Of a DNA stretch of 64,000 bases, positions 18,798 through 60,700 are shown one piece after another. Each line of letters opens with the position of its first letter. Position 1 is the first letter of the stretch. Origin of the DNA: Echinarachnius parma. Its lineage: Eukaryota > Echinodermata > Echinoidea > Clypeasteroida > Echinarachniidae. The notes beneath the pieces are model-generated. The model saw only the letters and a list, made by a program, of their open reading frames with translations, was not told the DNA's origin and ran no database searches. A program made the position numbers and the translations under genes. The stretch is from assembly GCA_037951105.1 (NCBI GenBank), contig JBAMJV010001317.1, forward strand, positions 62,001 to 126,000, given 5' to 3'.

Positions 18798-18804
18798 GAC
18801 AATT

Positions 18805-31268: not shown

Positions 31269-31442
31269 CAGTCAAACTTAATGTCTACCTCTCTATAGCA
31301 GCCAACCTGCCTATAGTGGCTACCAAAAGAGATCCCCTACAGAGAAAACTGATGTTATAGATCCTGTCTATAGAGGTCACCTGTCTACAGTGGCCATTTT
31401 TCTTGTTTCCCTTAGGCAGCCACTATACGCAGCTTTGACTGT
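31269..31442. mobile_element. MITE with CAGTCAAA ends (pogo/Tigger-like)
   Basis: Left end CAGTCAAACTTAATGTCTAC, right end complement ending TTTGACTG; CTATAGTGGC and TATAGAGGTC words repeat inside. A related element is at 43391-43504. The family guess rests on terminal sequence only. Confidence 0.6.
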
Positions 31443-31610
31443 ACACACACAAATTAATCTAGAGCTTCTTGAGGAACACAGACAATGGTAAAATGTCACT
31501 GCCACACGCAATCTACTTGTACGAGTTCCCTCAAATTTTTTTTGAGGCAGGTTCCGTTCACATTTCAATAACACATCACTCATCTAATGATCTAATGATG
31601 TAATCAAACA

Positions 31611-31790
31611 GTTCAGTACTCAAACCAAAAGTACACTGGCAAAGGAAACTAGAATTCACTCAATTAAAACAAACTTGGCCGTTTTGTTAATGTTACGATC
31701 CCTCTTCCTGTAGAATTTATTTCAGTGTCTGCACATTTGGAGCGTGTTGCAATAGCACTTCGTATATATGATAATCTAGACTCTGAGTGT
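31611..31790 (-). pseudogene. Decayed copy of the TOGARAM1-like terminal exon, in its 3' UTR
   Basis: About 186 bases from the true exon end, 31693-31762 repeats the coding end: on the minus strand CTGAAATAAATTC replaces CTGAAAGAACTC, giving an early stop where the real exon reads KELIQEEGS. Flanks repeat too (CAAACCAAAAGTACAC against CAAACCGAAAGTACAT). The change creates AATAAA at 31716-31721, a possible poly-A signal for the real gene. Confidence 0.65.
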
Positions 31791-31879
31791 GTAGTGTAGT
31801 ACTATGCTTTCAAACCGAAAGTACATTGAAAATGGACATCACTTGAACGAGAAGAAGTCAGCTTATATTATTGTCACTG

Positions 31880-32136
31880 TCACGATCCCTCTTCTTGTAT
31901 GAGTTCTTTCAGTGACTTGATGTTTCGTGGTGGCAGATTCTGTGCGTGTTGCATTAGCACTTCGCCCATCTGTTCGTTGAGGCTGTTAGCGAGGACGGCG
32001 GTGGCGCTGCGGAGGTTTCCTGAGCCCCCTGGCACAGCCCCACTCCCCGTCATGTTGCCCAGGAGGTACCATAGGACCGGTAGGACGTGTCGCACGATGG
32101 TCTGCTGCTTGCGTGGGTAAACCTTCGTCACCAGAT
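31880..32136 (-). CDS. TOGARAM1: TOGARAM1-like terminal exon, end of TOG4 and stop
   Basis: 257 bases to TGA at 31880-31882, acceptor CATCACAG. Encodes VTKVYPRKQQTIVRHVLPVL and ends LKELIQEEGS. Confidence 0.92.
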
Positions 32137-33720
32137 CTGTGATGAAAAAACAAGAATACATTTTGGAATGCTTCTTAGGTTCATGATCTGTCATGGGAAT
32201 AATTAAATTAATGTCAGTTAATGTCAAATGGAGCCCAAGTTTTCAAAACTAGCAGACAGGTTTTTTTTTTTTGGTGAATAGTAAAACAAAAATATTTCTA
32301 GATTCAATATAATATTCATAGGTACTACTACTAGAGAATGGGTAATGCGCTCAATTTTGTCACATGATTTTCATTTACAACCAGATAAATACATGAAATA
32401 TTAAAAAGAAATGTATGAGTTTTGGAGTAAATAATATGAATCATTTATACAACCAGCCTTTCCCGATAATGCAATCATCATCAGGCCACTTAACTAGACA
32501 CAACTCTTTACAAAATCTATTAAAAGAAAAAATTCATCGCTAGTCAAAAGGTTACTTACAAGAAAGTTTCTGAACCATTGCTGGCCTGGCTCTCACGTTG
32601 CCATACTGGGTCGCATTGGAAAATGGCTGCACCAAAACTAACATGTCTGAAATGAGATAGAACCAGTTTTAATTGTAATGTATTGAGACTAATTCAAAGG
32701 AAAACAAGTTACACAAGGGTTCAAAGGAAGTGAAAACAATGATATAACAGGTTGGACTTTGCTACGTTTGGTTCTTTTGAAGATCTTTACTCATGTCTGA
32801 AATAAGATAGAAAACCACAGAAAATGTAACCCCCCACGAACCCAAAACAAATCTGGCTATGATTATTACCTTTGTGTTACATAATTTTTAGGAAATTTAA
32901 TAATGCATTACAAAATCTTCAGACAAATGAAAAGACAATTGTATGAAACAAAACTCTAAGAATCTCAAATTCATCAATAATTCATCAAATTCATCAATAA
33001 ACTTTACGACATCAGCAATATTGGCATAATTTGTGTTCAGTTTGTCTTTCATATTTAGTCAGGTCTGCTTCTATCAAAATGTCTGGAAAGTTGTTACATT
33101 GTTATAATGATGTATTCAATCCAATCTAACATACATTGGAACACATACACCCACATACATGCATAAAATGTTACAACTGATAGTTTTATTACATTATTAC
33201 ACATCTTGCATATAATTTGTAAAATGGTGATAAAAACAAATGTGCTATTGTCTCAATATAATCTAATTATCAATGCAATTATGCAGGCACTTTTATTGAA
33301 ATATAAAAACAGATCAATTATACAGTTTACAAGTTTCTATACAAGTAAATACAAATTATGAGTACACATGTGACCTTCACTTTATAATGAGATATATGCA
33401 GAGATGCCAACCTTCACAAACCAAAAAAAGTATTCTGAGAGGTAAAAAAAAAGTATTTTGAACCCAAAAAAAGTATTTTTAGAGCTGCCAACCTTTAGAG
33501 GCAAAAAAACATATTTTTTCGCAAAGCAAATTCGCGCAGCAAAAATACCCTTTACGCACACGTTAATATAAAAGTTGGTTCGGTCGATTACACCAGCGTT
33601 TTTATAAGTTTGTTCGGTTTATTTGTGTTATATTTAAAATATGTATCTGGAGTAATAGTTAATCAGGGTTCAACGTAAATTTTGTTGCCGTTTTCCGATC
33701 GTTTCTATAGGGAGTACCAG

Positions 33721-33755
<35 letters not shown>

Positions 33756-33756
33756 G

Positions 33757-33787
<31 letters not shown>

Positions 33788-36700
33788 CCCCAAGAAAACG
33801 TATTTTATTAGGGGAAAACGTACTGCCGTATTTTGCGTGAAAAAACGTAACAAATACGGCAAAAACGGAACGGTTGGCATCTCTGTATATGTCATGTTCC
33901 ATTCTCTATTATTCGGACTTTTTCTTTCTCTCTCTCTACATATGATGACATAAACGGTACCCCGGGGTACCAGACGAAAATCCGCCATTTTGTTTAATTA
34001 TCTATTTCATTTTTAAGGCTGTACTGTGGGTATAGCGTGCATACAATCGCGCGCTGCACTGCATGCACAATGCAATAGCTGCGGTACGGTTGGACGCAAG
34101 ATGGCGCAACACAACGTGGGATACCGGGGTACAACGGTACCCCGGGGTACTGCATGTGTCATCATATCTAGGGCAATTAATCAATCATTAATGTTATAGA
34201 GCCTTTGTATATGGAGAATATCATTAAATGTAATATAGCTCCTTTGCCCTAATAACTGTGCCCCTTCATATGACTGGCAGACTGAAATAGTGACCACCTG
34301 TATACTAAATTCACTTGTTAATATTAAAGACCATTGATTTTTTACCCTGTAGAAAACAGTTTCCAATTTTAATGAATCTGTATATAAAGAGCAAGTACTA
34401 ACAACAAGTCAGTGCAATGAGTTACGGAATATCACTTTGCATTTTCGCTCATTAATCGGACATATATCATCCATTTAATGTGAAATTTCCACTCATTACT
34501 CAGTGAACATATCACAAAAATACAAATTTTATCAACCGTTCATCACTTTTTGCACATGTCAACCAAGTTACTAGATCCATCCCTGTAACTGTCTGGCTAC
34601 ATTTAGAGAGGCATCCCTACCAGTCATTAGAAAAAGGCAGCCTCCTGCTGGGTCATATCTACTATCTACTATCAAATGGAACCATCTTTTTTACTTGCAC
34701 CATTCATACCTCTAATTTATTGTAAATAAGTGGGGTGTTGTATTAAACACCATGGCACCTCCTTACGGCACACATCACTTCATCCTAGCATAGCTTCCTG
34801 TATGAGCTGCCAAATGGACTATTGCATTTTGTTGCATGGAATAATTTGCCCTCTAACTTCCATAATATTACAGTTATTAGTCGGGCCTGAAGACATTTTT
34901 TGTTTAGATTAGCTTTTGACTATTTTTTCTTTCTTCATCCCCCTGCCCCTCAGAATAGTTACACGAGAGTGACGGCTCACAATAAAGATATAAATTATTA
35001 TTATCATCATTATAGAGTATGAAGAACAGGTATGACACTACTTTCATTTTGCTTCTACTCACCAACATGTTCCAGTATGAGGTCTAGGATGCGATCACTA
35101 GTCTGACTGATGCTGGGGTTCTTGTTGGCGATATTCTGGACCAGAATTGGCACGATATTGTTGACTACCGTTGCCATGGACTCGCCTAGCCGAGGCACGA
35201 TGTCCTGCATCGCCGTCAGCGCTGCGATGTTCACCTTGGAGTTGGAGTCTGATAATCTCGATGCAAACTTGTCAAACACCTGGAAAATGAGAGCAAAGAT
35301 ATATTTGAGTGCATCGTAATTTATATATGATTATTTATTTAGAGAATACATAATAAAGGTTAACAACTAACAAAAAGAACATGTTTTTATCAAAACTAGT
35401 TTTGCTTTTATTGTATTTGTAAGCACTCTACTGAAAACATTTCAACTTCTTTAAACAACAGAATTAAATTTGATCATTCACTAACATTTACTTAGCACTA
35501 GATCCGGTTGAAAGAAATTGTTTCACATGTATATAATTACATTTTGCCCATCACTGACCAATATTTAACACAACCCAATCCCTACAGGAATCTGATGGGT
35601 CTTGTTTTATCACTATGGGCCCTGCAAAATGTATTAGGGAACAGAATAAAACTGATTTTTTTTTTTATTTTGTACCCCTTGACAACATTAGCACTGGTTA
35701 CATCCTCAAAAAGATAAACATAACATATGCAAATATAAGTAACCTGGCTTATTACAAATATACAGAATTAAATTGCAGCCTTCACCGACTCTCACTTTGC
35801 ACCAACGACTAAGAATCTTACCTTGACAACATTAGCACTGATCACATCCTCACTGGTCTCACACATCTCTTGTAACCTCTCGATAGCTTGCAATCTAGAA
35901 TTCCAGTCAGATGCCCCAAGACCCTCGCACAAAGCCTTTATGTCTTCGGTGGTTTCGCTGCGTGTCAAGCCACCGCTTCGCTTCCCCCGCTTGGTTGAAC
36001 CGGGCGGAGTGCGATCAGTTTCTCTATAATAATTTTTAAAAGATGCAATGAAATTGAGACCACTACAATTTATTCTGAAATAGTAACTATTACTACCCCA
36101 AAACTAATAGTAGACAAACAAACTTAAAATAGCCCAAAATCAAGCCCATAAAACACAGCAGAGCAAATATGCCACAATGAATATCTTTTTAACTGTCTTT
36201 CAAATGTCCCAGTAAAGATTTAGCATACTAGTTTATACAATGTAAAATTATATGAAAGTAACCTCTTAATTTACAAGAATTTGTATACAGCAACAGCAAT
36301 AATTTCTTTATTGAAGAAATGACTCATGTGAAGTAAGATTAGTATCCCGAGTTTGCTCAGCTCTTGGGGTTTAACTGGCTAGCTTTGGTGAAGGATATGT
36401 CAATTTACTAGATCTGTAATTCAATTCTAGAACATTTATTACAAGGATTTGGTAATAAAATAATGGACTTACGTGTAGTCTATCCTTTCTCTAGAGTAAG
36501 ACTGAGACCCAGAGTTTGCGCGGCTATTGGGGTTAGAGCGACGAGCCTTGGCTGATGATGTGTCAGATGGGGCATCTCCAAGACCCTAGTCAGATAAACA
36601 ATTAAGAAATATCTTGATAATAATCTTCATGACAGTGATTACATATTTAGCAATTGAGATAACAATTCTAAGATATATGTTCTTCAACATAAACCCAGTT

Positions 36701-39700
36701 TTCCAAGTCCCGGAAATATCTACAATGCAAAAAAACTGTACCTCCAAGGTATCTAAAACATGAATACAATTATATTGACAATAAAAAATAAAAAAATGTT
36801 ATAAAAAAGGCATTTTACCTTATTTTTGAGATTCTCCAAAATGTCTCTAATGCTCTTGAGGTTCTTGGCTGGTATGTGCTTCTCAATGAGTCGGTCAAAG
36901 TCTGGATGGTTCATCAAACTGAAGAAGATCTTTCTTGCATAGTACCTGGCCAGGAAAAATTAATTCATTATAAACATTTTCTAATTTGTTTTATGTAAAA
37001 AACAAAAAGTCTGATTACTGATAATAGCATTATATCTAATAGATGTTTTTCCATATAATTATACTGACAAGATTTATTTGACAAAATATATCATAAAAAA
37101 AAAAAAATGGTATCAAATAGTCTCTGTGATCCAGAAAACAGGGTATATCAATTGACTTTGTCGTTATTTTTTGGTTATCTTGTAATATGATTGAAAATAA
37201 AGGATGAAATTACAACAAAAGTACCTTGTTTCTTGAGCATTGTCCGTAGCCAGCTGGGCAATAGTAGGCAAGATTTTATCCGTCACATCCTTGACCCCGC
37301 TCAGTATACGCCCAGGGCCCATGCGGTCGACCAGTACATCAAGAAACACAACCGTCGCCCTGCGAACCGTGGAATTCTTGTGACTGCAAAGATAATGATC
37401 AAATAAACTAAATAAATAAATATTAATACAAAAAAAAACCCCCAAAATTGATGGATCTTCGACTCCGCTATCACACAATTTTTTATATCAAGCCCAAATT
37501 AACATGCACTGAATTATTTATGTAAACTCAATTTTGATGGTAATTCATCAACCAGATCTTGAGATATCACAATTACAAGCTATTTACGAACTGGCCCAGG
37601 GCCACTAAAATTTAGCTTTTTGCCAAGAAGATCTTGCTGATTCCAAATATTACTTGTCCAACAGGGGTACCAAATGCGTTCCTCTGTTTTAGGGCCACTG
37701 AAAACTGGCCTTGTCCCTCCAATAAAGGAAAGTCATTTCATTTAATCGCTGATTGGCTCACCAACATAAATTTTAAGGATGTCAATATTTAAATTGTGAT
37801 GGAAAAGGAACTTAAGGACACAAAGGATCGTAATTAGCACTAGCCCGCTGGTACAGGGCCATCAGAAACATCCTCATTAACAGTTTGAATGAGACAATTG
37901 CTCAAATAGTACAAATATTCTTATTTACTTAAACACTGACACATATATGTAGCAAGTGTAACTAATTTGATATCTTAAGCCAATTATTGTTAAATTGTGA
38001 TTATCCCCTCCATTAAAAAGATTTTGTGAGACATTTCAAATTGATACAATAAACAATCTAAGTGGCATTATGTCATGATTTATTTGCCATTGTCCATAAA
38101 GATGACAGCTGCATGCAATATTGTAATAAATGGTAACTAATTTGATAACTGCGGCTGCAACTTGAAAAATTAGACAAAATAAAAAAATTCAAATATATGT
38201 ATCTATTTCTAAAACTTGATCCTTTTATTTGTTTTTATGAACACTTATTAGCTTGTATGAACACATTGCAGGCATTAGAATATGATTCACAATTATTCAT
38301 TAAGAAGGGATATCCCAAACCAGTCGACAAATTAAAATTATGAAACAATCTTATCATCCATACTTTAATCTCCCTCCAATTTAAAAGCTTTCTCATTTGA
38401 GATAATCACTAACTAAAATTCATTTGTTAGTATTTGCTCTTGCTAGTAAGACCGACAGCTACATCTATGCATTATTGGTGACTTATTTGATAATCCAACC
38501 CAGAACAAAGAAATTTGACAAAATGAAATTTCCAACCTTCACACATTTAAGCAACTGTAATGACATGATTATACTTCTAAAGGATCAGTTCACTAAACAC
38601 ACTCATTACATTGATTGAACACCATGTAGCCGGAGATGCGCAAATAGACAATTCAATAAAACAGGCATTAGGTATGAATGACCGATTGCTACTTAATTAT
38701 GTTTGCCAGTTTTCAGCACTGCGTAATGTCAACTTGGGCTTGGGAAATGATTTGCCCACGGGAGGCGAGTCTTCAATACTGAAAATGACATTCAGTATTT
38801 TTTGTCATTGCAAGATTAATGCATGACATCGCATTTTAATCCGACTTCAATCATTCACTTTTGAATGCAATGCCCTTAATAAAAAAAGACAATAACCAAA
38901 TATAGGATTTTCACATTGAATATGTTACTTTACATAGATGCAAACAAATGAGATCTTCTTTCATTCAATCCTTTGCCTACAAGATTTATAATTTCCCATA
39001 AAAAACAGGTTCCCTTAGTGGATGTGTTAATCACTATTATCCTAATCGTATCTGATTACAAAGATCCTGCAATTTGGAAGACAACAATGATATGAATGTT
39101 CCTGAATTCTATGACTGGCAAGAAGCAATAGTCATCTTAGTACTATTCTGCTAGGGATTTTCAAATTTGATGTAAGGCCTTACCTTGCACCCGCTGTGAT
39201 AAGTGAGCTTAGTACTCTCTGTGGAGTAGCATTCTTCACCATGGCTTCCAACGTCTTATCAACATCCTCTCTGATGAAACCGTTACTCTCTCCGGCCTTG
39301 GGAAGCAAGATGCGACAAATCTGATCCAGGTCCTATATCAGGCATAATAACAAAGACAAATGTTAGTACTTGATTTTGTTTGTTTTTTTAGCTTTTAATG
39401 GGGTGTTAATAGTAGGCTTTTGTTAAGTTTGTTCCATCATCATCATCATCACTATCATCATCATCATCATCAAACATCATTTTCTTCAACATCATCATTG
39501 TCACTGTCACCATCATCATTACCATCACTCTCACCATCACCATCACCATCATCATCCCCATCATCATCCCCATCACCATCACCATCACCATCACTCTCAC
39601 CATCACCATCACCATCACTCTCACCATCACCATCACCATCACCATCACTCTAACCATCACCATCACCATAAACATCACCATCACCATCACCATCACCATC

Positions 39701-42700
39701 ACCATCACCATCACTCTCACCATCACCATCACCATCACTCTCACCATCACCATCACCATCACCATCACCATCACCATCACCATCACCATCACCATCACCA
39801 TCACCATCATCACCACCATCATCATCATCATCATCCATTTGATATAATAATGGCATCTAATAAGAAAGTACTTTACCTTATCCAGACTTGTTTTCATTGC
39901 CTGGAACAGATCACCCAGTGTTGATATGGCTGCCCTCGCAACCGACGATCTCAAGTTCTTGACTTCATTTAGAACTGCCACAACTATAGTGTGCAGTTGC
40001 CCACCGATCTCATTGGTATGGAAGGAGGCCAGCCTCTGAATGATGAATAACCCATCCAATTTCACCTCCCTGGTTAAGATAAAAAGAAACAAATCAATAC
40101 AAGAATATGTCTTAGTTGCTCTCATTGAATGATAAACTTTTTTAGAAATGCTAAAATTATATTGTCCAGTTTTCCTCCAATCTCATACTATTAGTATATG
40201 AATTATAACTGCTGAATAATGAATAACCAGTGGATATCCTATTTCTATATCACTAGATTTATAAAAAAAAAAAAAAACATTCAAACAAATTACATATTAT
40301 ATTGTACTACTTTCTTGACTGTTTGTAGTCTATACAAACTATACAAACAATGACAGAGATGATCTCAGTTTCTTGATTTTTCTAAAAAAAACTACCATGA
40401 TGATATTGTGAAGTTGCCAGCTGATTTCATTAGCATGGAAAGATGAAAGCCTTTGAATAATTACAAATTAACAGTTTCATCTCCCTAAATAGCAATCCCT
40501 CAAATCCACAAGTGAGTTGGCAACAGGCGTTATTTCTCTGCCCTTGCTATATCACAATAACAATCATATAACAATCATAATAACAATCATGAGTAATGAG
40601 GGAACACAACATAAAGACAATTTTGTGGTAGCTGGAGCAAAACAGTACTCACCAGTCCTCATGTCCAAGGTAGCGGAGGGAATCCCTGATAGCCACGTCT
40701 GAGTTGGCAACAGGCTTCATTTCTCTGCTCTGACCATCGGTCTGAGGTGGCGAACTGACCGCTTTGGCACTGACTGAACTAATTGGGGCCTTGGTCACAG
40801 ATATGCTGTACAGAAACCAAAAAAATGGTCACAAATATTAATTTCCCAATTAAGAAAAGGAAAACAAGTTTTGCTGATTTCATGAAAGGCATTTATGAGT
40901 GTTTTCATTTTGAGCTGGCTAAACTGACAGCATTTGCCACATAAATTATGTATGAAAATAACAAATTGGTCACATCTATTAATAGGGGAAAATTTTACAA
41001 TGAAATATCTAAATAAATTTTAACATTGTTTTTTTTCTTCTTCAAAAGAATTGAGTGTTTTCATAATAAGACAGCAAACCAACAGCAATGAACTTATTGA
41101 GACATTGGTCTCTAATATTTTATAGCCATGAAGAAAGAAAAAGAAATAAATACTTGGCTGATGAAACCAAGATGTCTTTATCAGTTTGACTTATTATCAT
41201 TAAAAAAAATCAAATGTGGAAATAAATTGAATTTAATTGAATAACTTATCAATTTAGTGTTTATATGATACTGAAAAGACTCACTATCAGAGTTGATTAA
41301 AATCAAGACATTCAAATATACCAATAATACTTTAATGAAATAATTAATTAAAAAGATAAATCAATAATTTATCGAAATCAAAGCAAAATATATAATGTAG
41401 ATAATCAGTTTTGTATATAAGACACTAATCAAATCAAACTATTTCTAACACATTCATTTCAATAATGATTTAAAATTTCAATTATAATTACTTGAATAAT
41501 TACAAGGCTCCCATGATATTACGGTGAAGGTCTCTACCAATTCTCTTGCTATGACGTCATTATCATAAAATCATGTCTCACAGTATTATCTATCCATTAT
41601 CATTTGTCCATAAGAGCTCTCTACATCATACCAGGCCTATAATTATGTGACATTCATGAAAAGTCAATAGGAAGTTCATGCAAAAAATAAAAATGCAATG
41701 TATTGATTATTTCTGAAAATCAATGGTTTATTTCTGTCCTATCAATAGCCATTCTCTCAACGGCAGTAGGCAATTGAAGCAGGGGAAACGCAAGACAATG
41801 GCACTACATCCGGCTCCAGACAAAAGAATGAAATGTCATGAAGTCATGTGGACAAGGCCAGCCATTATTAATGCAAAAGGTCGACAGCAATCACTTTTTC
41901 GTCAAATTTCGTCAAAAAAAGATGATAAGCATATTCATTGAAATATGCCCAAAATATGATTTGTATGGGTTAACCCATTGCATGCAGAAACTTGATTTAC
42001 GATATACATCAACTCTACAGGAATTCAAATACATCTAGAAGGGAACTTGTTAATATTCTTTCCCCAACCAAGAATTACATAAACATCATGAACTCATGAC
42101 TTTTGTAAAAGTAAATGGAATAAATGTTAAAGTGATCCATTAACTTTGTACGATTTCAACCAAACTCACTTGAAGCTTTCCCACTTCTCTTGTACCTTCT
42201 TTTTGTTTGGCTTGATATTGTAACAGAAGAATGAAATGGGTTTTGATTTTTGTCACGTTTTCATAATCATGGATAATTGGATATATTTAAGATTGAATTT
42301 GAGAGTGTCTATCCGACCGTAGTCAAGAGTATCCAAATTTGGATACTTCACGCGAACGATCGGGATAAAGTTAGACATTACGCGAACGATCAGGATAAAA
42401 TAAGACATTTATTCTCTGTTGTCACTAGGTAAACTTTATTCTTTTTCTATGAAATTCTTACAATGAAATTGGCACATGATTGAAGTCTCAAACATAACTT
42501 TGGTGGAAAAATATAAAGTTACTGGATCACTTTAAATCAATGTCGACTGATCTGATTCCATTCCATCCATCATTCTCCCTCTCCTCCTTCATTAGTTTTA
42601 ATAACAGTTTATTACAGCTCAGTGTCAAGCATATAAAATGCAACTTGGACAGTGGAGTAGCATGGTTTGACTGATTGGGGGCATTTGAAAAATGTTTACC

Positions 42701-45700
42701 CCTATGTTTTTAATTGTTTTTGTCAAATTATTGGTCCCCCCCCCCCCCCCCCCCCCCCATCACTCTGTATGGACACATATTTTCTTTAAATAACAACAAC
42801 AAAACATATACAGAATACATTCATGAATCAGTACAAATGAAATCCATTTCCTTTTGCAAAAAGAATTCAATATATTGCTTCCCAATGATATGAGTAACAC
42901 AAACTTACGTCTTTTTCTTTAGCGGTGTGGATGCAGCAGGTGGCTTGGAAGCGATCCTGGTGGTGGTGGGGCTGACTTTACGAGTCGTGTTGTCCAGGGT
43001 GGCTCCATTTATTGCAAGGTCTGCGGTAAAATCTGTGGCATAAGTGGATACAAAATGCATGAAATACTCATGCTTGCTTCAGATGGTTGTTACAGCACAT
43101 TATTTCCAATGTCCAACGATCATATAATGGATGACAAAAATGGCACATATTTGTTTTTTTTATCTAACCCTTTTCCTTCCTCTCCGTTTCCCTCTCCCTA
43201 CTTTTCTTTCTCTTTGACTATCACAGCCCACTGTAATTTCTCTTGTAGTGGGTATCAACAAAAATCTAAAGACTTCATGACCCTAATACAAGTTATTGGG
43301 CCATTTACTCACCCATGTATTGAAATATAGGAGGACATACAAAACAGAATGTGAATCACTACTTTGCAGCAGATGGATACAAAATGTATACAGTCCATCT
43401 GTCTATAGTTACCACCTAGGGGAAACAAGAAAAGTGGTGACCATAGAGAGGTTCCATTAGCTGTAGGAGATCACTTATGATGGCCACTATAGGCAGGTTG
43501 ACTGCTACAGACAGGTGGATAGGATTGACAGTAATTCAATTACCTTCATCATCCTGTTCATAAGGACTGGTTGCATCCAGTTTTTTCAGTTTCTCCCTCT
43601 GCCTTTCCCTCGCTTTAACCTGCTGCTCCTGTCGTTTGCTCTCCCTCTCCTTGTCCCTCTCCGCACGTTCTGCTCGTTCGACCCGCTGGCGCTCACGGTC
43701 CTGACGCAGCCGCTCTTCCCGCTCTCGTTTCTGCTCCTCCCGCTCCCGCATTCGCTCTTCCCGCTGCCGATCACGCTCCTCCTGTCACAGAGAATTTGGG
43801 AAATGATGGAATATCAGTAATAATTGGGTGAATTATTAATCTTCCAATCGATAAATCAATGAAGGAAATCTTGACTGATGTTCCTAGATGTCAAGTAACT
43901 ACTTCTTGCATTCCCCTCACATGTTTTATGTGCTAGCAATCGTACTCTTCCAAAAAAAAACACTTTAGAACTTTGTTCATATTGTTATAAAATGTTATAA
44001 GGCAAGCGATAAGTAATATAAAACAAAATTAGATACACCCCCCTTAAAAAGAAACGAAACATAGACCCAATTACATCAACAACCAATGGTTATTTAAAGG
44101 AGGGTAGGGCAAAGATAGTAATGTGGGATTTGGTTTGATTGAATCAATTAATTAATGGACAGAATTACTATGAATATTTTACTATGAATCAAACAATCAA
44201 TGAATGAATAAATTATTAAATAAACTTAAACTGATGAATAGTGAATGGACCATTATTATGAATAAATAAACACTTATATATGTTGCTAAATAGATGCACA
44301 AAATATGTACACCAGTGGCTACAAATGCCTCTGCTGAATAGGTATATCATTTCTTTGCACAGAATATACCCCCAAATTACACAGAGAAGGAAAGAAAGAT
44401 GGATGAGGGAACCAATTCCCTGGTATGGCATATTGACAGTACATTCATCAGCAGGTCAATGCAATGCCCACATGACCTGATTATTGATCAATATACTGTA
44501 TCTTATAGGTGATTTCCGGTGAAGAATGCCACCATTGAGTATTAAACAAATTATGGGGGCAATCTGAGTTCCTGTACAGAGACTGGCGACATGGCTAGAA
44601 ATCACACTTGCCCGCTGGCCCAGGGCCACCAAATCTGAGCTTCTGGACACAATTAAAACTTGCATTCACACAAAATTTTACTTCCGCAAGTGTTTATATT
44701 TATTTTGGGCCGACAAAAGTCAGTTTTGGGTGGCCAAATAATGATAAGTCATGAATTTACTTGCCAAAAAGGACCACCATCAAAAAAGGGTAATTTCTAG
44801 CCCAGACAGGGAATTGATGTTTTCATAAATATCTTGTATCTTTCTCACCATATCAGAGGAGATTGAAAATGCATTTAAAATCTTTAATATCATAATAATA
44901 TGTTAATATTCGAATTTTGACAATTTTTTCAATTACTGTTTTGAAAGATGCTTATTATATGTATCCATTAATATTACTAACTTTATTGTTAATCAACTTA
45001 TCTGTTTTTCATGTTTATTTTCAGCATTCAATGAATGTATTTCTTTCTTCATTATTTGTATAATTATTTTGTATTTAAAATGTGATTATGTTGAAAATAA
45101 AATGAATCACATCAAATCAATAATTCAACTGATCATACATAAGGAACAATTTTGTTGCGACATAGATGGTTCATTACAAGGAAGTATAAACCCACAAATA
45201 ATGCGTTGCTCTTTTTCGATTTTTGAATAACACAAAAAAGAACAATACTACAATGGGGCTTAAATGATAGAGAAATGCATGTCCCATCTCTAAACATTAC
45301 AAGAATTTAACATTTTTTACAAAAAAGTAAAAATACTTCTAAAATCAGATAATCTCTTGTTTTCATCCCATACCATCTGTTTCTCTACCCCCTCCTCCTG
45401 TTACAAGAATTGTATATTTACACAAAAAGTAAGAGTACTGGGCAATATTCCGTGAAAACGTCTACCAAAACTTTTTTTTAAAATCAAGTTTGTGGTAGAT
45501 TTGTTTCTTCTTATGATGGTTGATAATGCATGACTTGAACTTTCTGAAACTGATAATATCCATATTATATCTGGATTCATATTAAAAAGCTGAGTGCAAA
45601 TAATAAATAAGAATTGAAAATTCCCATAAATATCTACAATTTCCCAAAATACCTGTTTTTTGTATATTTACTGGAGGTCAAAGTTCAACATTATTTTGTG

Positions 45701-48700: not shown

Positions 48701-51700
48701 TTCTTTCACATTTACCTCTGAACAAAGCAAAAATCAAAGACAACAAATTTAGAAGAAGAAAAAACAGCAATAATTTTGTCTCATGGTCTCACCTCTTCTT
48801 CTTCCAGACTATCCTCATCAAAGTCTTTCTTGAAGTTGAGTCCAACGACCTCCGGTAGAGATTCATCGCTCGGGTTGTCACTCGATCTCCTTCGCTGCGT
48901 CTTCTCATTTCCATTGGGACGAGGATACTCCACTATATTGGTATCACTACCAAATACACCTGGAGAAAAACAACCAAGCAGGGCAGGGCAGTTAGTGGAA
49001 AGTATTGAACATTATGTTAGTATTCTAGTGGACATCTAGTTATTCCCTTGTAGCATGTATATTCTCACTCCCATTGGTACGAGGATAGTCAACTATACTT
49101 GTTACTCAATATCAAACACACCTGGGGGTGTTTTGCAAAGATTGCAAAGTTGAATTTAACTCTAAGTTGGTCCTAACTATTATGGAAAGTCGTTTAGTTT
49201 CTTTGTAAAATTGTTGAAACAATTCTTTTGAAAAGGCGAAATCATAATTTTGTTATTATCAAGGAGCCTTGGAATAATTGATATAAACCGAACACAAAAA
49301 GTAACTTCACCCCTAAGCAATTGCCCATAATTTCATAACCGATTATTGTTTCAAGATGTCATCTTATCACAACATTGGTACAGTTGTTATGTTCGATATG
49401 TGCGAAAATCAGAGATATTCATTACTTTATGGCTGAATGAGCACAGATTAAAGACAAAACGGCCCAATTCAAAAGTCACAAGGTATTGCGCGTGCCTGTA
49501 CATTGTTTTGAATCCGCACATGTGGCGGAATGCATTGATCATGGTTTATGAAACAATGCTGTTTGATATTCCATTAATTTCGATTTTTTGATGGCACATG
49601 TGGTGAAATGCATTAATTGCAATTGTAAAACAGTGCATTTTTTAATTTTCCAACTCTCAATAATTTGTAATGATGATAATACTTTTGCGAATTTTGAAAT
49701 ATGACTATTTTTTCTGTAATGTGTGCTCACTCAACCATGGATTAATGGTTACCTCTTATTTTTACACATTGTTTTCCTAACTACAATATGGATATATTGG
49801 CAAGACGAAATCTTGAAACGATTTCTGGTTATAAAATTATGGGCAATTGCTTAGGGGTGAAGTTACTTTTTGTGTTCGGTTTAGATTTTTGTTGCAAGTT
49901 TCACATACATGAATTTTTTGTTTGTCAATATGTGTTATTTCGAGTCTACAATTTGCTTTCCATAAGTGTTAAGTCTAACCTAGAGTTAAGTTTAATTTTG
50001 AATCTTTGTGAAACACCCCACTGGGTAAAAACAAATTTTTAACTAAGACATCAGTGAAAGTATTGAACATTCTTCAGTATTCTAAAAATGATCCCTTATA
50101 TATATATTTGTAACAAGATACGGTATCACAATAAATATTTTTTTAAACCTGGGGAAAACACTAATCCAGGACATAAGTGACAAATATTGAACATTCTAAT
50201 TAATAAATACTCGACAGCATATGTTTTATTGCACACAAATTTTCAATTCCATTCATACAACTTTTAAAGGATATTCTACATTACTGGTATCACTTCAAAA
50301 TACACCTGTGGAAAATTCTATCCCTCTATCCTCTCTAAAGTGCAAAAATATTGAACATCCGAAAGATTTTTTAGTGCATATTCAGTATACTTTGATGCAT
50401 ATATTCTCACTTCTGAACCGATTTCGGAACTGCTAAAACGATGCCAACTCAGTGAAATTTTTACATTTTAAAGCAAACAAATCTTTATAGATCTATGCAA
50501 ATATTATGATGACCCACATGTTGTATGTATTTGCAAAGGCAGAAATTGTGTTTTTGTCTACATCGTTTTTTTCTTTCTTTAATGAAGACTGAGGAAACGA
50601 AACAAGGCAATTAAAAAATTAGTCCCCTGACACCAACCAACGGAGCATAGTCGATATCAAGAAACAAACCATTAATCAGCCAGCGAAATGACCAAATGAC
50701 CTTGTTTACTGCAATTATTTGTGCAATACTACTCCCAAGAACAGCAATTAGCATTATGCATTAGTCAGCTGAAAATTTGATTCTCATCTTGTGACAAGAA
50801 CAATCATCAAAACTACCATTAAATTTACACTATTATCGAAGGTCGACCATGGCCGATGTGAACTCTCTAAAAAGGTTTCTGTTTTTATTTTTTGTCATTA
50901 CTTTGAAAGCCCTCAAAATAGTTATAAATTTAAAGCACACACCCTTTCAAAATTAAAATCTAAAAGGTTCCCATTTGCTGCAGAATTCAAACATTAATAG
51001 TATATTCAGGCTATATTTGTTCTCATTATTTATTATGTAGGGTTCTGAGTGGTACTACAGTACAGGCAGCAGACTTGTAATAAGCACATCCAGGCAGAAT
51101 AATCATATATTTCATAAAGGATATTTATAACTGGATAACCTCCGTTCTTCTTGACACCCTAAATCCATTATGTCACATAAGAATAAAATTGTATTTTACA
51201 TTCAATATCATTTACAAAATTCAAATTATTCTTGAAAAAAAGAAATAAACAAATTGAGAACCTAGAATAGAAATGATAAATTAATGAATTATATTAGTTT
51301 ATCAAATCATACTTATTTATAAAATTCACGAGGCAAATTTTAAAGGGATTTAGTAACATTGTCCAAATCCTACTACTAGATCCCTTTAACACTTTGTATA
51401 TCTCAACAAAATTAAATTTTACTTTATTTTTGGGGCTAAAAATTGATACTTTTTACAGTAATTTAAACGAGTAATCACGCTTTTGCAACTATTCTCAATT
51501 GTTTGTATAGGTTGTCTGGATGGCTATATAAATTATATTTAAGTTGGATCTAAAATAAACTTCAATTTGTAATTAACATTTATAACGCTCATTTGTTAAA
51601 TTCCCATGTGAACATGTCAACAAATATCACAAATGTTACTTGAAGGAATATCATGCAGAATTGCCAGAGAATGTCTGAAATACGGATTCTAATCATATTA

Positions 51701-54700
51701 TCCTCTGTTCAAGTTCCTTGAATTTGTAAAGGTTCAAATGAATGAGTGTGCCTTTTATTTCTGAGGTGCTAAATTAACATTTGTGCGTTTGAATTGACAT
51801 TTGGCTCCAATTCAGATTCCAAATTATACAGAGAAGCCTACATATCTCATAATTACATTTCTTTAATTATTGCGCTGCTGAAATTGACGGTAGCACATCA
51901 CAAAATTAAAAGCAAAGCATGACTGAAGGACATTTTCATCAGCGCGTTTGCGGTGATCAAACAGTTCGTTATCGCTCCCTCGCACGCTACTAGCGTCACC
52001 TTTTCTCTGAAATAGACAAGCGCTGAATGAAAACTAAAAAACAAACAAAATTAGAAGCTTCTTGTTACCGTGCATCGTGATGTGATATTAGAATATTTAA
52101 TAATTATAAGCAAATATGTGTCTATTGTTTGGCAATGAAGGGGAAAGCAAACCAATAATCAACATCCATACAGGGAGGGCTACCACCCAAATCAAAAATG
52201 GTTACACACAATGGCACAAATTGATATTAATAGGGAAAGTACGAGGCTATCATTGTCGCAAAGCGATGTATCGCGTTGCTAAGCAACCATTGAGCTGATG
52301 GTTATACAAATGGTGGATATAGGTTGAGAGGTAGGTGCACCTAACAAGACCTTAACCTCATCAGCTCTGGCCCGCTGGCCGATAAAAATCAGATTCAGGC
52401 TGGCAACAATTCTACCTGACTGAATAGGCAACACAAAATATCAGATTTTATTTAAACTTATCAATTCTGAATAAAATTTTTTAAAAGTTTACATTGATTC
52501 CCAATTTATTGAAATAAATAAGAAACTTTTTGTTTTATAACAAAAATATTAAAATATTCTTTGCCTGTCATTTCATTTTATCTGATTGATTGTGGGAATG
52601 AATAGAAACTGCCATAATCCTTGTTTTGTTTAGTTTGCCTATAGCCATCAAACATATGTTCTAACCAATGTTCCATAGTAAAGCAGATTGTCATCTAGTA
52701 ATGGACAAATCAAAGCAGAATACTATAATTTTGTTTAACTTTTCCTATAACCATTACAAAGCCTTATTTTACCAAAGATCCATTATAACAATTATTTGCC
52801 ATTTTGTTTATCTGATTGTGAGGGAAAAATAGAATGTCAGTTTTGTTCTTACCTTTGCCTATGACCATTGCAAAGTCTTCTCCCACCAACGCTCCATTGT
52901 CATCCAGGTCTACTCCGCCAGGATGGTGCAGAGATGCCATGGACAGAGGAGATAAGATGGAGCCTACAAATAGAAGATGAGAAGATAACGTCACATGACT
53001 TAGTGAGGTAATTCAAGATTTTAAAAGCCTTGAAACAATAAATAGAAGTTTTGACAAGATATGTTTTTATCTTCTCCAACCAAAGCTACAATGTCATCAA
53101 GGTCCTCAACCCAGATGCTACAGAAAGAGCCATGGGCGTAAATACTTATGTAATACCTTTTCATCAGGGGGGATGAATGAATAGATCATCCCCCTCTGAT
53201 GAATGGGTATCAATGACAGATTTACGCCCATGGAAAGAGCCATCGGAAGAGGTGACAAAGTGGAACCTATTAAAAAAATTAAGAGAGAAGATACAACATT
53301 AGGACTTCATTTCTTCTTTAAAATTGTGAAATACACTTGAAAGCTAGGATATTACATGTCTTCCACAACTAGCGCTCCAATTTTGTAAGGTTCACTTGGC
53401 CAGGAAAAAGAAAAAGAACAATGAAAGCAAATGAAAGCAAATGAGACATAATATCACACAGCTTGAAAAATAAATCATACAAATAAACGTTAACAAGGAA
53501 ATTAAAGAGCATGAAATTAATTTGTTTTCTTGTGGCAAGTAAAATAAAGATTTCTAAAATTCTAGTGCCCAAAGTCTGAATTTGGTAGCCCCAAAACAAG
53601 AAAATACATTCAAAATTCTGTTACATTTGGTTGCTCATTCAAGCAAGTAGATTCGAATTTGGCATTAACGAAACTAAATGAAACTTTGGTGGCCCAGAGC
53701 TGATTATAGTGGTCCCGGCCAGGCCAGCAGACCTGTGCTTAAGCCCTCTGCAGACAGAGCCGACTCGACCCGATCCGACTGGTTTCAATCAGGGTAGAGT
53801 TGGGCCCGGTCGGTCGGATCCTATTCATCGTGTTGAATCGGCCCCAACTGGCATCCGACTGTCTCTCGACTGGCAAAATGTGTGTCGCGAGTCACTGAAA
53901 AGAGCCGATCCGAATTAAAACCAGTCGAATCGGGTCGAGTCGGCTCTGTCTGCAGAGGGCTTTATTTCGAGCCTTGCATGTTGTACAAAAGTAGGTTGGG
54001 GTAAACAAAAAATTTCACATTCACTCAATTACTTTCATTTGATGGCACAGCTACACTTGCTCTTCTTGTTTACAATTGAAGTAATTCAGAATTTCAATTA
54101 CATTTTAAAGAGCAATTAATTAAGCAAAAAGGAATTGTGCTTGATCTTCTCTAATACAAACAGAATAGTGTCAGGGCAGGATCAGCTCCAACTAATTACA
54201 TTATATGGCAATTGATGATCAATGTTTGCTAGTTGATATATGATGACATAAACGGTACCCTGGGGGTACCAGACGAAAATCCGCCATTTTGTTTAATTAT
54301 TTATTTAATTTTTAGGGTTGTACTGTGTGTATAGCGTATACAATCGCGCGCTGCACTGCATGCACAACGCAATAGCTGCAGTACGGTTGGACGCAAGATG
54401 GCGCTACACAACGCAGTACCCCGGGGTACTTCGTGTGTCATCATATCAAGGAATACCGCCCTCCCCATATAGATACTGGCTGGGGAGTGGGTACACTTAA
54501 AGGGATCTAGTAACTTTGATGATTAGTGCAAAAAGTGATGCATGATTAATAAAATGTGTATTGGTGTGATCTGATATGTCCAGAAAGTTATGTGTGAAAT
54601 CGGATGTTATTTGGCCGAGAAATGAGAGAAAATGCAAAGTGATATTCACTTACTCATTGCACTTACTTTGTACACGGCTTTAAATATCCTGTAGATAATT

Positions 54701-57700
54701 TAACATCCGAACACTTCAATCGTAAATATCTTTTGAACGAAATGGAAATTAGACTAACCGAAACCTGTCCCATGCTTTTATTGTTAATATGAATACAACA
54801 AGGTATGAGAGAACCACTAGTGTTCCAGGTAAGTTTTGAGGATTTGGACAATGTTACTAGATCCCTTTAAATACATATCATAGAATCTACAGAAACTCTC
54901 TGTTATCACAATCACATTTTGAAAAATTGATTAAATTCTTTTATTGATTGAACATTTTTGAAAAATCGATAAAAAAACCAATGAACCAAATACATGAATA
55001 GATAAATAAATGAATAAAATCTATGCAATGTATCCAACCGTTTTTACTGAAAGCATTTTAAAAATATATGTTTTTATTTCATATTACATGTAGGTGCAAA
55101 ATGAATAATCCTTAAATGGAGCGAATGTAATTGAGATAAAAACCATTTTGTATATCTAATTATCAAACTGCCATTTATATTTGTTATTTCTGTTTTATGG
55201 TTCGAATAAACTGAATCTGAATCTGAACTACCGTATTTGTCGGTGTATTAACCGCACCTTTTTTCTCAAAAAAAAGCTCCAAAAAGGGGGGAGCGGTTAA
55301 TACACGGAGATAGGAAAATTGTACACGCAAATTGCCTAGCCAGCGCCGGGCCCTAATACGATGCGGTTAATACACGGAGATAAGATTCACAAGTGACCAA
55401 AGTCCACCTCAGCAAGGCATTCATACTCATACGATGCACGGAAAATACAAGCATATTCCCCCCAAAACAAGTCATGCAGTGTCTTTTATGTTTCTCTTTT
55501 ACCTCTTCCTAAATATTGCTCGTTGTTGCTGCGAAAGCAGCTTTGAAGATTCACGATCATTGCTTCGATCTTAGTACGAATCCTAACATGCACCCGGCCG
55601 CGCGACTGGCACTTGGCCGAGCATGCAGGCGGGGATTCTCTTTCCCGACCCCCGGCCGCCGATGCTCCAATACAGCCCGCCATATCACTCATATACTTTG
55701 CGTGCAGGTTATCGGGTCTATTTTGTTACGCGAGATCCATCCGCCGGGGATTTCCCCAATTCCCGGCGGATGGATCTCGCGTAACAAAATAGACCCATAA
55801 CCTTCACGCAAAGTGTATGAGTGATATGGCGGGCTATCGGAGCATTTGTTTAGTACCGGGCGGACTGGATGTCAACGTTTGAGAATCGTTTCATCCATGT
55901 CGACGATCGACGACGATCGTATGCCGTATTACTCGCTATTATTACTTACTATTTCTGAAACAGTTTTCAAGAGTAGATTCAACATAATTTGAACTAGAAA
56001 GAAGGAATAACATTAAGGTACATTTTTTTTTAAATCTCCGTTCTGATTGTTTTATTGGTGAAATCTTCGTTTTGTTGTCTAACGTTTTATGTAGTCCCAT
56101 GTGTAGTGATCCGTGTGGCAAATTCAACAGAAGTTATAGATTCTTCTGCTGTGAAGAAGGCCTGATAATTTTCTTTATTTACTTCGGAGACTTCAGTAAA
56201 TAAAACAAAATTCATATGCAAAAATTCTCTGATAGATAAGCTATTTTTGGTACCTTTCCTAAGAAAATGCTGACCATCTAAAGACTAAAAATCAAGAATT
56301 ATACTATCAAATTTTTTTTTTTTTCATGGAAAAACGGCCAAAGTTGGGGGTGCGGTTAATACATCGGAGCGGTTAATACACCGACAAATACGGTACAAAA
56401 GGAAATAAATAAAATTGGACTTTGTATTTGTCTACAAGATATGAAATAGTTTTGGATAATTAGACAAGCCCTCCTTCACTGAATAAACTAATTGAACTTA
56501 TTTTCCCACATTAATGGTTGAATTATCACCAGCATTGATTGATAACCACTTTAACCCACTCAGGACTGGTCCTGAAAATTCTTCAGCTGGGGCCTTACAA
56601 TGTATGGAAAAGCCAAATTATAATCAAATAATCTTTCATTGGTTAAACACACTATGAATGGAGTATTTACACGCATTCTCCAAACAGCCCAATCCAAGAA
56701 ACCTCAACCTGCCTTCAACAGGTTCATAAGGCAACAGGTCTCAACAAGTTCATGAGACATAGCACCTTTTGTTTACTTTAAATATAAGATTATATCTAAT
56801 CAAAGCTCAAATCAGAAATATATTATTGTGTGCCTGGCCTCCGATTGATACATTATGTTCAGTAGATCGCTTTCAAAAGATACGTGCTGCCACTATAACT
56901 GGAAGGACAAATATGACCGCCCATTATTACTGATTATCACTTTGCACCATGACAGTTGCCATAGCAACCAAACATGAGATATTAATCTGTGCAAAGTTGG
57001 CCAAGGATAGAGCAAAATACACAGCAGTGTCTATCTTATGTCATTCATGCAGAATCGATACATGTTCTGGCATTCTACTGTAGGCAATGGGACATTAATA
57101 AAGCAATACAAGCATATATCATGTGTTCTGATCACAATTTACCTAACATAATTACAGCAATCATATTAATTTACTGGCTACGCTGATAAACGGAAGTTGT
57201 GTTTCATGGGTGTAAAGTGAAAGCGCACTAGGTTATTCACTCGGAAATGTTCCATTTAAACCCATTCAGGACTAGTCCCAAAAATGTCCAGGCTGGAATC
57301 CATGGAGAATGCACCTACCAAAATCAAATCATCTTCCATGAGTTATTTTTTAGCAATAACCTTTATTACATTAGTGATACCCTGATCTATTCAACTTGAA
57401 ATTATTATGTGATTATTTTTTCAATCATAAACTTTTCAGAGGCTAAATAATAGTGACATTTCAGATAGCCTTCCTAATATTCATGGAAAATGTATCAAGT
57501 TGAGGGTAGTGAAATATTAACTTTGCATTAACATCATTAATTGAAACATCACATCCAGTGGTGTAGCGTGGGTTAACATGATTGGGAGAGAGGGCATGCC
57601 ACTTATTGAAGTGGGGGGGGGGGGGGGGGGGCACTCTACGTACATTTATTTTTTACTAAGATAAAGTAAATATGGGAAGAAGGCAGCAAATCTCTATTCA

Positions 57701-60700
57701 TGATCAAATTCATGATAGAATCTCCACACATTTCCCAGGTGTGTTACTGACTGTTTGTCCTCATGACACCAACAACTTCTATATTCTACAAGTAACCACA
57801 AAACTTGCATCACTACACAGTAGTACATTCATCTCTTGACCTCATTCACAATCTTTGGTGAGACATATATCAAACATTGCACAAATATCACAATAATTGA
57901 CTTCAACAAAGAACAGTCTAGGTTTGAAATCTCAGGCACAATTTGACTTACAAATATCACAATTGATGGTATACTGCTAACCATTTGTGCTGATGACATC
58001 AAAATAATCAAGATTCAACAAACAAACACAAAATAGCATTGTTTAACAATGCTCCCCCCCCCCTTTTAAAATGGATCAGAAGATCAACCAATACAGCAAT
58101 CCACAAATCGGCGGGTGAGAACAAGAAGGGCGTTTAGCCGTTATTTGGCTAAATTGAGTTGCACAAACCATCTTGTGAAAACATGATTTATATAAAAGAA
58201 AGCTTGATTTGGTTTCTACATGGCTTTCAAACTTTTAAACATAATAATCTCTGAAATACAAAAAGTGACTTAATTAGCGCCCTGCTCTTTCTCAACCCAC
58301 AAAATGTAACATAAATTGAATGAAGCGCAGCCTACCTTTTGTTCTCTTCCTGTCTCTCGGATTCTGGGATTTACCCCCCACATGGTTCTCTGATAGGTCT
58401 ACATCCTTGCGACTCGTGCCCTGGCCGTTCCCCAAACCATATCCGATGATGCTCACATCCGATGACGCATTTGAACCTACATCTAGCTCCAGTGGACTGG
58501 AGGTTTGCCGCGATCCCTTGCTGGAGTTAGCCCGAGCAATGCGCGGCTTGGAACTGAACGGAGAGTCAGAACCTTTCTTGCTACTGGAAAGCAGATGTAA
58601 AAAAGATGAAAAAGTTATCAATATGAGACTAGAAACAAAGAAGAATTACATGAGTAGTGACCCAAGGGGTCGGCATGGCACTGGTGTGTGATATGGCAAC
58701 ATTTGACATCTTATAACAATTCCAAAATCGGGTATCATCTCAAAATAATACTCCATACACATTATCAACAGTCTCTGAGACAAAGACCATGTGAATATTT
58801 TCTAAAAACTGAAATAATCCACGTTTTAGCACCATATTTGTATTAATTTTGTGTTTTTGTTGTATCCAAACTCACTTTCTTCGTTTGATGCCATTCTTCT
58901 CTGCTCCCTCTTCAAAGTCAAGTCTCCCCGTAGACTGCAGACTGAAGACTCCGCTCTCATCTAGGTCACCGTGTGGAGAGTATGGACTCAACGATCCCGC
59001 CCTCTGGTGACTGGATGAACGCTCCTGGTCACGAGCCATCTTCTGAGCCCTCTTCTTGGCCGCACTGCCACGGATTGTTTGCAGGGATGTCATCTACGGA
59101 GAAAAAAAAACTTGGTTAGTAAGTTTTTTTTCTCCCATAATCATGGCCACTTCCTTGTTTAATTTGCATGGGATCTACCATTCAACAAAGACAAACATAA
59201 GCACTTATTCTTAATGTTGGTCAATACTATTGAATGTAGCTTTTGAAGGGATGTTATCTATTCTACGATAATATAAAACTCTCAAGCACATTTTTAACTC
59301 AATAAGGAAGTTTTGATTTTGGAAAACACACATTTTCAACAGACTTTTATAGCCAAATATATATTTCAGGCTTATAGTCATTTTGTTTTCATTTCATTTA
59401 TGACAACCATTATAACAAACTATACAACTTATTACAAAATAACCAATACATAACAATTAAAGAAAATAATGGTTAGGACCCCTAACCTACAACAGGTTCA
59501 TTAGAGTTATTTCCATTTGCTTATCTCTACAATGTCATGCAGTACACAATCAATATATATATTTTTTTTCATAAGCAGAAAATGGAGGTGACAGTTCGTT
59601 AAGGGATTTCATCTCTTCGATAAGAACAGTTTCAACTCAATAAGGAGTATACTCACACTAGGAATTTCCTCTTTCGTTGCATCAGACCTGAAGGTTTCCG
59701 CTGGGTATGAATCCCAATCGTCATACTCGTCTCGGGGGCTAGGCTTGTCCAGGGGAACCAGGGGCCTGGCCTGGCCTCCCCTCCGGCCAGCGGATCTGGC
59801 CAGGGTGGCCTTGAGGGGGATGGGGGACACTGGTGAGGTGCCTGAGGAAAGGGGGCCTTTGCCGGGGGAGGGCATGTCATACTGGGTGTGGTAGTCGTGG
59901 ACAGCATCTGTGGGGAGAGAGAACAGGATAGATACATTTGAAATAATTATTACCAGCAAGTTATTTATCAACCATCTGTATATTGTATTGCTGACTGAAA
60001 TAAAGAGGCTAAAATGCATTTTCTCTAACTTGTATAGGTTGTTTTATTCACTGAATTTTCAATGATCTTTCATCTTCTTCAAGGTAGCATGAGTTGTGTT
60101 TATCAAACTGGATCACAGACATCAATTTCGGGGTGGGCTCTTAAATTGAAAGAGCTGCTTCTTTCTCACTCTTCTCTGCTACAGGGGCAGAGACTCATAG
60201 GATAATATTATACACTTCCCTAGATGGAGATCCAGCTCAATGCATCATGAACCAGGGATCTATACTAAGTACAGTAGTTTGCTAGTTAAGCCTGGTTTGG
60301 GAAAGTTATATTCAATTTGTTGTAACCAGAAACAATCAGAGATGTGATTAATGGATGAGGTTTGGCAATGAAGATAAACAATCTTCTAATTCTTTCAGTT
60401 TGAAAATCTAGTTGCCTGATTGGGCCACCAAATAATGTCTTTCCCAGATTTGTGGTTACCCCCATGTAACATTATACTGGCCCTGGTAAAGTAGGCCAGT
60501 GTTTAGGTCTAGTCAAGTCTGAACCAGAGTTGGGAGAGCTCAAAAGGCTGGTTTCCAAGGTGATACCATGACCAAGCCTATGAAAAAGCTATTGACTAGT
60601 AAGTACAACTTCTATTCTATTTCCCAATTGCTCAGGTTCTATACTAGAACATGGCACTGCATCCATGGACATTTGAGGATTTATGTTTCTATTCAAGTAC

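Follow-up and report, generated by a model that had tools for sequence, protein, structure and literature searches.

Why should so many exons of one gene lie next to decayed second copies of themselves? The question is posed by a stretch of 64,000 nucleotides from the echinoid Echinarachnius parma (positions 62,001 to 126,000 of contig JBAMJV010001317.1, assembly GCA_037951105.1), in the following referred to as the window, whose minus strand encodes the 3' part of a TOGARAM1-like gene. An initial annotation had listed ten places where at least nine exons are accompanied by a diverged copy in the adjacent intron or the 3' flank, and had offered repeated local tandem duplication as one explanation. 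We followed these copies through the window, located on contig C1316 (340,917 bases), and scanned the 1.2-Gb genome assembly, comprising 14,790 contigs, for similar cases at exons of other genes. The study covers one genome, 57 distinct exons, and three gene sets picked by match score.

Our answer is that the affected exons are very probably the working ends of decayed head-to-tail tandem arrays, which arose by repeated duplications across a single exon edge and would be tolerated by splicing.

Diverged copies beside the exons of the TOGARAM1-like gene

A model based on splice sites and reading frame places 19 exons of the gene on the minus strand at 31880..61045. They represent its 3' part; the 5' part, including a large 5' exon placed by eye, lies outside the window. 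The model runs through 1200 codons without an internal stop. AG precedes every exon and GT follows all of them except exon 19, which is closed by the stop codon; the donor of exon 18 is shifted by one base. The name TOGARAM1 is the label given by the initial annotation, and here the product is assigned by Pfam only, to CLASP_N (3e-18).

Each exon was compared with its own flanks (2.5 kb per side, exons masked), with flanks taken from distant exons (same strand), the reverse complement, and the reversed sequence as controls. Exons 5, 6, 10, 11, 15, 16, and 19 (7/19) reached own-flank scores of 27 to 44.5, and no control of theirs exceeded 18. Among the other 12 exons, no own-flank score stood out from the controls: exon 8 scored 18.0 against 18.5 for its own reversed control, and exon 1 scored 15.0, barely over its controls (13.0). 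Copies of exon 7 emerge once the intron side of the edge enters the test. Furthermore, 19 places in the window were tested against 400 dinucleotide shuffles each, and at 15 of them the score was unreached by any shuffle (31693, 31585-31471, 35686, 36330, 40165, 40397-40550 with two parents, 46208, 45345, 49052, 50315-50240, 53068, two copies within 52565-52790, and 40983-40908). The remaining four tests were marginal, namely 32787 (p 0.04), 59232 in two readings (p 0.005 and 0.01), and 50179-50122 (p 0.04). A blastn alignment of the window against itself at word size 7, the check that had been proposed at the outset, recovers most of the same pairs. Nearby diverged exon copies are thus real. 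Eight of the ten places listed originally are firm, the marginal ones being 32787 and 59232, and firm copies accompany eight exons (5, 6, 7, 10, 11, 15, 16, and 19) instead of at least nine. Exons 5, 6, 7, 11, and 19 have multiple copies.

All copies lie on the minus strand, and unless marked otherwise each passed the shuffle test. Moving from the 3' end of the gene upstream, the 3' end of exon 19 together with its 3' untranslated region (UTR; parent 31989-31810) recurs at 31620..31787 (71/95 exon and 48/64 UTR positions identical; 0/400 shuffles reach the score) and again at 31471..31585 (59/84 and 20/29). A possible copy of the acceptor edge of exon 18 at 32789..32817 is the marginal case with p 0.04. 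The 3' edge of exon 16 is repeated at 35677..35708 (30/32 identical), and most of exon 15 plus the start of its intron at 36272..36402 (exon 63/89, intron 24/33). A copy of the 5' edge of exon 11 with intron tail, copy B, occupies 40136..40299 (exon 79/104, intron 33/43), and a corresponding copy of exon 10 at 40908..40983 (exon 26/40, intron 28/36) is absent from the initial list. The 3' edge of exon 7 and the adjoining intron start are found at 46202..46262 (exon 18/22, intron 35/39) and at 45322..45432, the latter recovered by self-alignment, pair alignment, and shuffle test.

Two places are associated with palindromic inserts. The 5' edge of exon 6 has one copy at 49062..49125 (exon 49/58) and a second one at 50240..50315 (exon 45/58, intron 8/10); between them lies an insert of about 895 bases (49125..50019, plus strand) that is palindromic and transposon-like and was recognised as an inverted repeat. 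A possible further copy of the same edge at 50122..50179 is marginal (p 0.04). The upstream copy of exon 5 (53070..53342) is interrupted by a second inverted repeat at 53130-53233; its 3' piece (exon 53/64) passed the shuffle test, and its 5' piece was placed by eye and by a weak tile match (22.5). Downstream of exon 5, its 3' edge plus intron is repeated at 52698..52784 (exon 36/46, intron 26/33) and 52569..52686 (exon 38/52, intron 46/50). As an observation in its own right, palindromes were found at 11434-12964, 49125-50019, 53130-53233, and 55662-55845, which are probably foldback or miniature inverted-repeat transposable element (MITE)-like; the one at 53130 is bordered, as judged by eye, by a short direct repeat.

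When positions 31000-33000 were compared with the genome, the matches among the best 40 of 1954 candidates fell within query positions 246-451, a separate dispersed repeat. Among these best matches, the dispersal typical of a transposable element was not seen for exons 18 and 19 and their copies. The short dispersed repeat itself is situated at 31245-31450 by the 3' end of the gene and has at least 45 further matches (best 40 of 1954 candidates), some of them in tandem.

Exon-edge copies in other genes compared with random DNA

For the comparison across genes, each exon was taken with 600 bases per side, and a same-strand copy was counted at a score of at least 20. The myosin set consists of high-scoring matches to the myosin-head profile, 20 stretches from 16 contigs, chosen by rank; two higher-ranked exons (C4122:83999 and C9272:164396) were passed over, and so were presumed second haplotypes. 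The kinesin set comprises 20 stretches from 20 contigs, each contributing its best match, with presumed second haplotypes excluded by eye. The choice was not blind, protein-level neighbours being already visible for C1237 (myosin) and for C10331, C12482, C1406, C4289, and C1423 (kinesin). Two myosin loci are duplicates (L037 is 99% identical to L035, and L045 to L041), and counts are given with and without both.

Same-strand copies accompany 13/20 myosin exons (11/18 without duplicates), 10/20 kinesin exons, and 7/19 TOGARAM1 exons, altogether 30/59 or, without duplicates, 28/57. Not a single opposite-strand copy was found at the 59 sampled exons. The pervasive pattern, first described as a property of a single gene, is no weaker in the myosin and kinesin genes than in the TOGARAM1-like gene. 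We also read dynein, SNF2, and kinesin matches at the protein level, by eye and with no control, for same-strand matches that are separated by less than 400 bases and have at least 20 profile positions in common. By this reading, the pattern appears in 8/20 contigs for dynein DHC_N2 (e.g., C1870 102843/103091/103270 and C6613 157515/157815/158039) and in five contigs for kinesin.

Random DNA was represented by 210-base segments taken every 500 bases over 200 kb adjoining the window (n = 397), 80 of which have a same-strand, 53 an opposite-strand, and 9 a reversed match. The excess at exons over the 80/397 is significant with the duplicates (30/59; Fisher 2e-6) and without them (28/57; 8e-6). 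Part of this excess should stem from visibility, because the parent exon hardly drifts.

The copies were listed for all exons with a copy, secondary ones at a score of at least 17, yielding 53 copies, 39 upstream and 14 downstream. Of the upstream copies, 36/39 derive from the exon's 5' half, and 11/14 of the downstream copies derive from the 3' half; without duplicates, 32/35 upstream and 3/14 downstream copies come from the 5' half (Fisher 4e-6). Simple repeats were left unmasked in this listing, and one downstream match (L046 +60), an ATG repeat, is best discounted, which changes the downstream count to 10/13. Measured by edges, which are profile-match edges in the case of myosin and kinesin, 35/39 upstream copies come within 45 bases of the 5' edge and 3/39 of the 3' edge; for downstream copies the numbers are 1/14 and 12/14, respectively. 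A copy thus nearly always carries the exon edge facing it. Most copies do not hold both edges, i.e., they are not full-exon duplications.

This rule bears on the view that any segment of a repeat-rich genome would look similar and that exons are merely where we looked. Local direct repeats are indeed common, as the 80 random segments demonstrate, and the next 200 kb of the contig (L009-L028, contig positions 126001-326000) contain tandem arrays that repeat every 138-158 bases and belong to several distinct families, several of the arrays coming from shared dispersed ones. However, the random segments match on the same strand and on the opposite strand (80 and 53 of 397), whereas the exons have 28/57 and none, and the one-edge rule is bound to exons. 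We therefore consider a mere background of local repeats unlikely.

The step between successive copies has a median of 184 bases, with 33/51 steps in the range 150-224; without duplicates, the median is 189.5 (quartiles 162 and 210, n = 48), and 32/48 steps fall in this range, 7 being shorter and 9 longer. The size mode is suggestive and does not represent the full size spectrum, given that very short units may fall below the score cut-off and steps well above 600 bases are beyond reach. Given the shared dispersed family among the arrays of 138-158 bases, the modal step may partly be owed to mobile elements. Self-alignment at fixed offset (no shuffle control) reveals abutting units in 11/19 runs, or 10/17 loci, among them L046 (31-608, period 175), L042 (199-743, 214), L047 (114-698, 198), L068 (277-759, 193), and L036 (754-1439, 170). 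Within the window, units abut in 6/17 runs, one of them intron-only, and copies overlap in register for exon 19, for the downstream side of exon 5, for the upstream side of exon 10, and for the far copies of exon 6. The arrays are graded: the nearest copy is more similar to the exon than the next one in 11/15 arrays, less similar in three, and tied in one (10/14 more similar without the duplicate L045). In L046, successive copies show 97, 77, and 64% protein identity, with a stop in the last.

Could the copies be tandem exons that function, or did so until recently, in mutually exclusive or alternative splicing? Mutually exclusive exon arrays, such as those of Dscam and insect myosin, likewise consist of tandem exon-like units beside a working exon, and a few near copies (L042, L046, and L060) are open. 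Such arrays keep both splice sites and the frame, whereas most units here are one-edged, several carry stops or frame shifts, and one is split by an insert. The substitutions between copy and parent were evaluated in 15 of 18 aligned window pairs, leaving out exon 18 (self-aligned), a weak pair of exon 2, and the weak copy 3 of exon 6. Mismatches amount to 231/965 exon positions and 87/404 flank positions. By codon position 1, 2, and 3, the mismatch is 24, 18, and 31%, as under coding constraint; yet the same pattern, lowest at the second and highest at the third position, is expected if the parent exon alone stayed constrained. Furthermore, G/C changed to A/T at 141/458 G/C sites and A/T to G/C at 45/507. 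The copies have drifted toward intron composition (33.5% GC), because changes from G/C to A/T far outnumber the reverse. Present or recent use as exons is thus distinctly unlikely.

Reinsertion of cDNA pieces near the gene, i.e., an RNA-templated origin, would leave copies devoid of flank. In 9/15 window pairs, at least 20 flank positions (intron or UTR) are aligned, flank is included in 7/13 exon-containing myosin alignments, and the arrays repeat flank, too. On the grounds of flank content, head-to-tail layout, and drift from GC to AT, the copies are tandem duplications at the DNA level. This is in good agreement with the explanation by repeated local tandem duplication given initially, and also with the statement that the copies are not processed ones, which holds for the copies in general and has one possible exception. 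A copy of 187 bases (40358..40544, minus strand) fuses the 3' half of exon 10 to the 5' part of exon 11 without an intron and is located inside their own 583-base intron; its spliced alignment scores 67.2, with shuffles at 17.6 or below. Clear homology is lacking for the final portion of exon 10, and a deletion would thus suffice to explain this copy; we consider RNA-templated copying a very improbable source of the copies. The fused copy itself could be an RNA-templated piece, the product of duplication plus deletion, or a relic predating the intron. The last reading is disfavoured because the intron's own ends lack exon homology (head vs. exon 11, p 0.65; tail vs. exon 10, p 0.37; the only intron tested). 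For the same reason we rejected an intron gain between exons 10 and 11, which had been suggested by the fused copy and the similar offsets (+187 and -185), as though a once continuous exon had formed an array of four units. Two further candidates for spliced copies were discarded as well: at the exon 5/6 junction the match runs into the end of a palindromic insert, and at the exon 16/17 junction it crosses the junction by a few bases only.

Five pairs of homologous contigs allow a view on the gain and loss of units. Three of them share their copies (L052/L070, L054/L072, and L058/L073); in the first pair, one copy in L070 is 97% like its exon and the matching copy in L052 78%. L049 carries a copy where L069 has other sequence. 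L061 holds a 158-base unit which is missing from L071, the join falling within 12 bases common to exon and copy. Since this copy matches its exon at 88%, whereas the exons of the two contigs hardly differ, the unit appears to be older and was probably lost in L071, through exchange between units. Misassembly, with haplotypes wrongly set in tandem, can practically be dismissed: the assembly does seem to contain several genes as two haplotypes or as recent duplicates, but the copies are 30-200 bases long and mostly 70-93% identical, not long near-identical neighbours, one is broken by an insert, and 3/5 contig pairs share theirs. Regarding the assembly as such, equal or near-equal gene matches occurred twice in C2768 (33946 and 123119, same contig, 89 kb apart), C1854/C99, and C6989/C7396, which we read as uncollapsed haplotypes or recent duplications.

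A probable mechanism: duplication across one exon edge

How could such arrays arise? In the mechanism we favour, a piece of DNA, mostly of about 160 to 210 bases and lying across one exon edge, would be duplicated in place, in accordance with the flank and, in many cases, the tandem layout that are observed. The piece would consist of intron tail plus exon head, or of exon tail plus intron head. The outermost unit would stay the exon edge, and the inner copy, having one splice site only, would not be recognised as an exon, would leave with the intron, and would therefore be tolerated. One-edge units would be nearly cost-free, whereas exon-internal or whole-exon duplications would alter the protein and be purged; the one-edge rule is seen here, and copies occur in several gene families. 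Once present, units could be gained or lost via slippage or unequal exchange between one another, a one-unit difference between homologous contigs being observed. Dead copies would drift toward the AT-rich composition of introns, which is the observed direction of decay. The process may be initiated by the filling-in of nicks, staggered or paired, or by lagging-strand flaps that are mishandled. Lagging-strand fragments are of nucleosomal length, and the observed size mode comes close to one nucleosome repeat, which, as a guess, would favour a chromatin-spaced lesion.

A more far-reaching version is possible, though we hold it tentatively and lean against it. The lineage might have an active, size-specific process that duplicates units of about 160-210 bases, corresponding to a nucleosome repeat or an Okazaki fragment. 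Introns would then grow outward from exons as layered arrays, the nearest layer being the youngest, because exon edges are both the tolerated site and the conserved reference, and much of the intron adjoining exons would be old exon edge.

Several observations weigh against arrays of one-edge duplications as the general explanation. The random control stems from a single 200-kb stretch of one contig, and the exons were sampled by match score, several sharing one contig. In a test of whether exons are preferred targets, young, i.e., high-stringency, copies are enriched at exons (13/59 vs. 30/397 random segments); the longer visibility of exon copies fails to explain this excess, which could reflect retained copies or the choice of a single random stretch. 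SNF2 genes show the pattern in merely 2/27 contigs (C12025 and C5190; protein level, by eye), and it is much weaker there by a blunt measure. In 6/15 window pairs, the flank comprises at most 10 positions, 6/53 copies violate the one-edge rule, and 8/19 self-alignment runs are without abutting units and consist of separate copies only. The open near copies of L042, L046, and L060 are about 97% identical to their exons in protein, and the fused copy at 40544-40358 is at odds with plain genomic duplication.

Neighbouring elements and relation to known duplications

Besides the TOGARAM1-like gene, the window contains frames resembling a non-LTR (long terminal repeat) retrotransposon on the plus strand (16720-20835), with a first frame at 16720-17397 and endonuclease- and reverse-transcriptase-like frames at 18021-20835, as named by their motifs. 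Frames resembling two-pore potassium channels are located on the minus strand at 2762-3127, 7547-8221, and 22054-23184, two of which contain TIGxGD motifs that we take to be selectivity-filter-like, and the last of which includes an 84-base tandem repeat (22096-22387). Positions 1-2250 form a large tandem array of 33/165 bases, where both strands are open for about 200-260 codons in the first 800 bases. In the genome, the codon usage of mitochondrial COX1 agrees with NCBI table 9 (echinoderms, flatworms): AAA stands for Asn in the conserved stretch MNNMSFW, ATA for Ile in PIMIGG, and TGA for Trp. The overall appearance of this protein suggests an echinoderm.

For small tandem duplications, Messer and Arndt 2007, Vaughn and Bennetzen 2014, and Schiml 2016 are cited in PMC5730883, and Gao and Lynch 2009 is likewise cited in the literature on boundary-spanning duplication. 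Tandem exon duplication with degenerate or unannotated intronic copies has been described (PMC12343006, PMC9013439), and the initial statement that no standard description exists does not stand in this respect. Exonize (PMC12343006) tallies partial, inter-boundary, and intronic exon duplication events. As here, these are same-strand local intronic copies of coding exons, some of them degenerate, including an inter-boundary class; unlike there, about half of the exons sampled here are concerned, mostly at one edge, and the copies are arrayed with a size mode, where the measures differ and no side-by-side run was made. A duplication spanning one intron-exon boundary (PMC4974935) shares with our arrays the tandem unit of intron tail plus exon head; it represents a single event creating a new intron, in contrast to the repeated arrays at many exons within existing introns. 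Small tandem duplications formed by fill-in and end joining of staggered breaks are abundant in evolving genomes (PMC5730883) and are likewise adjoining direct copies of a short segment, whereas the units studied here centre on about 185-190 bases and repeat. Finally, unprocessed Okazaki flaps give rise to local duplications upon FEN1 failure (PMC12633238). Size alone invites this comparison, and in contrast to that replication defect, none is known for the present organism.

Thus, degenerate intronic copies from tandem exon duplication, duplications across a boundary, and small tandem duplications are each familiar. What seems new is how often sampled exons are affected, together with the one-edge rule, the size mode, and the grading of the arrays; among the papers listed by searches of the open-access literature, none presented genome-wide exon-edge arrays.

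Our findings suggest that introns in this genome partly grow by repeated small duplications which splicing ignores. The lengthening of introns and small tandem duplications are usually approached via rare recent events; old ones can still be read here at about half of the exons in a small sample. In theory, a copy should stay recognisable beside a conserved exon for roughly twice the time for which a pair of drifting intron copies remain alike, and exon edges can therefore serve to probe the duplication process. The one-edge rule looks as if the splicing machinery exerted selection, and the size mode gives a quantitative hint to the mechanism. In practical terms, gene finders may mistake such copies for extra exons. 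If the pattern were genome-wide, one could use exon edges to measure the rate at which small tandem duplications arise in this animal, as well as their size spectrum and survival.

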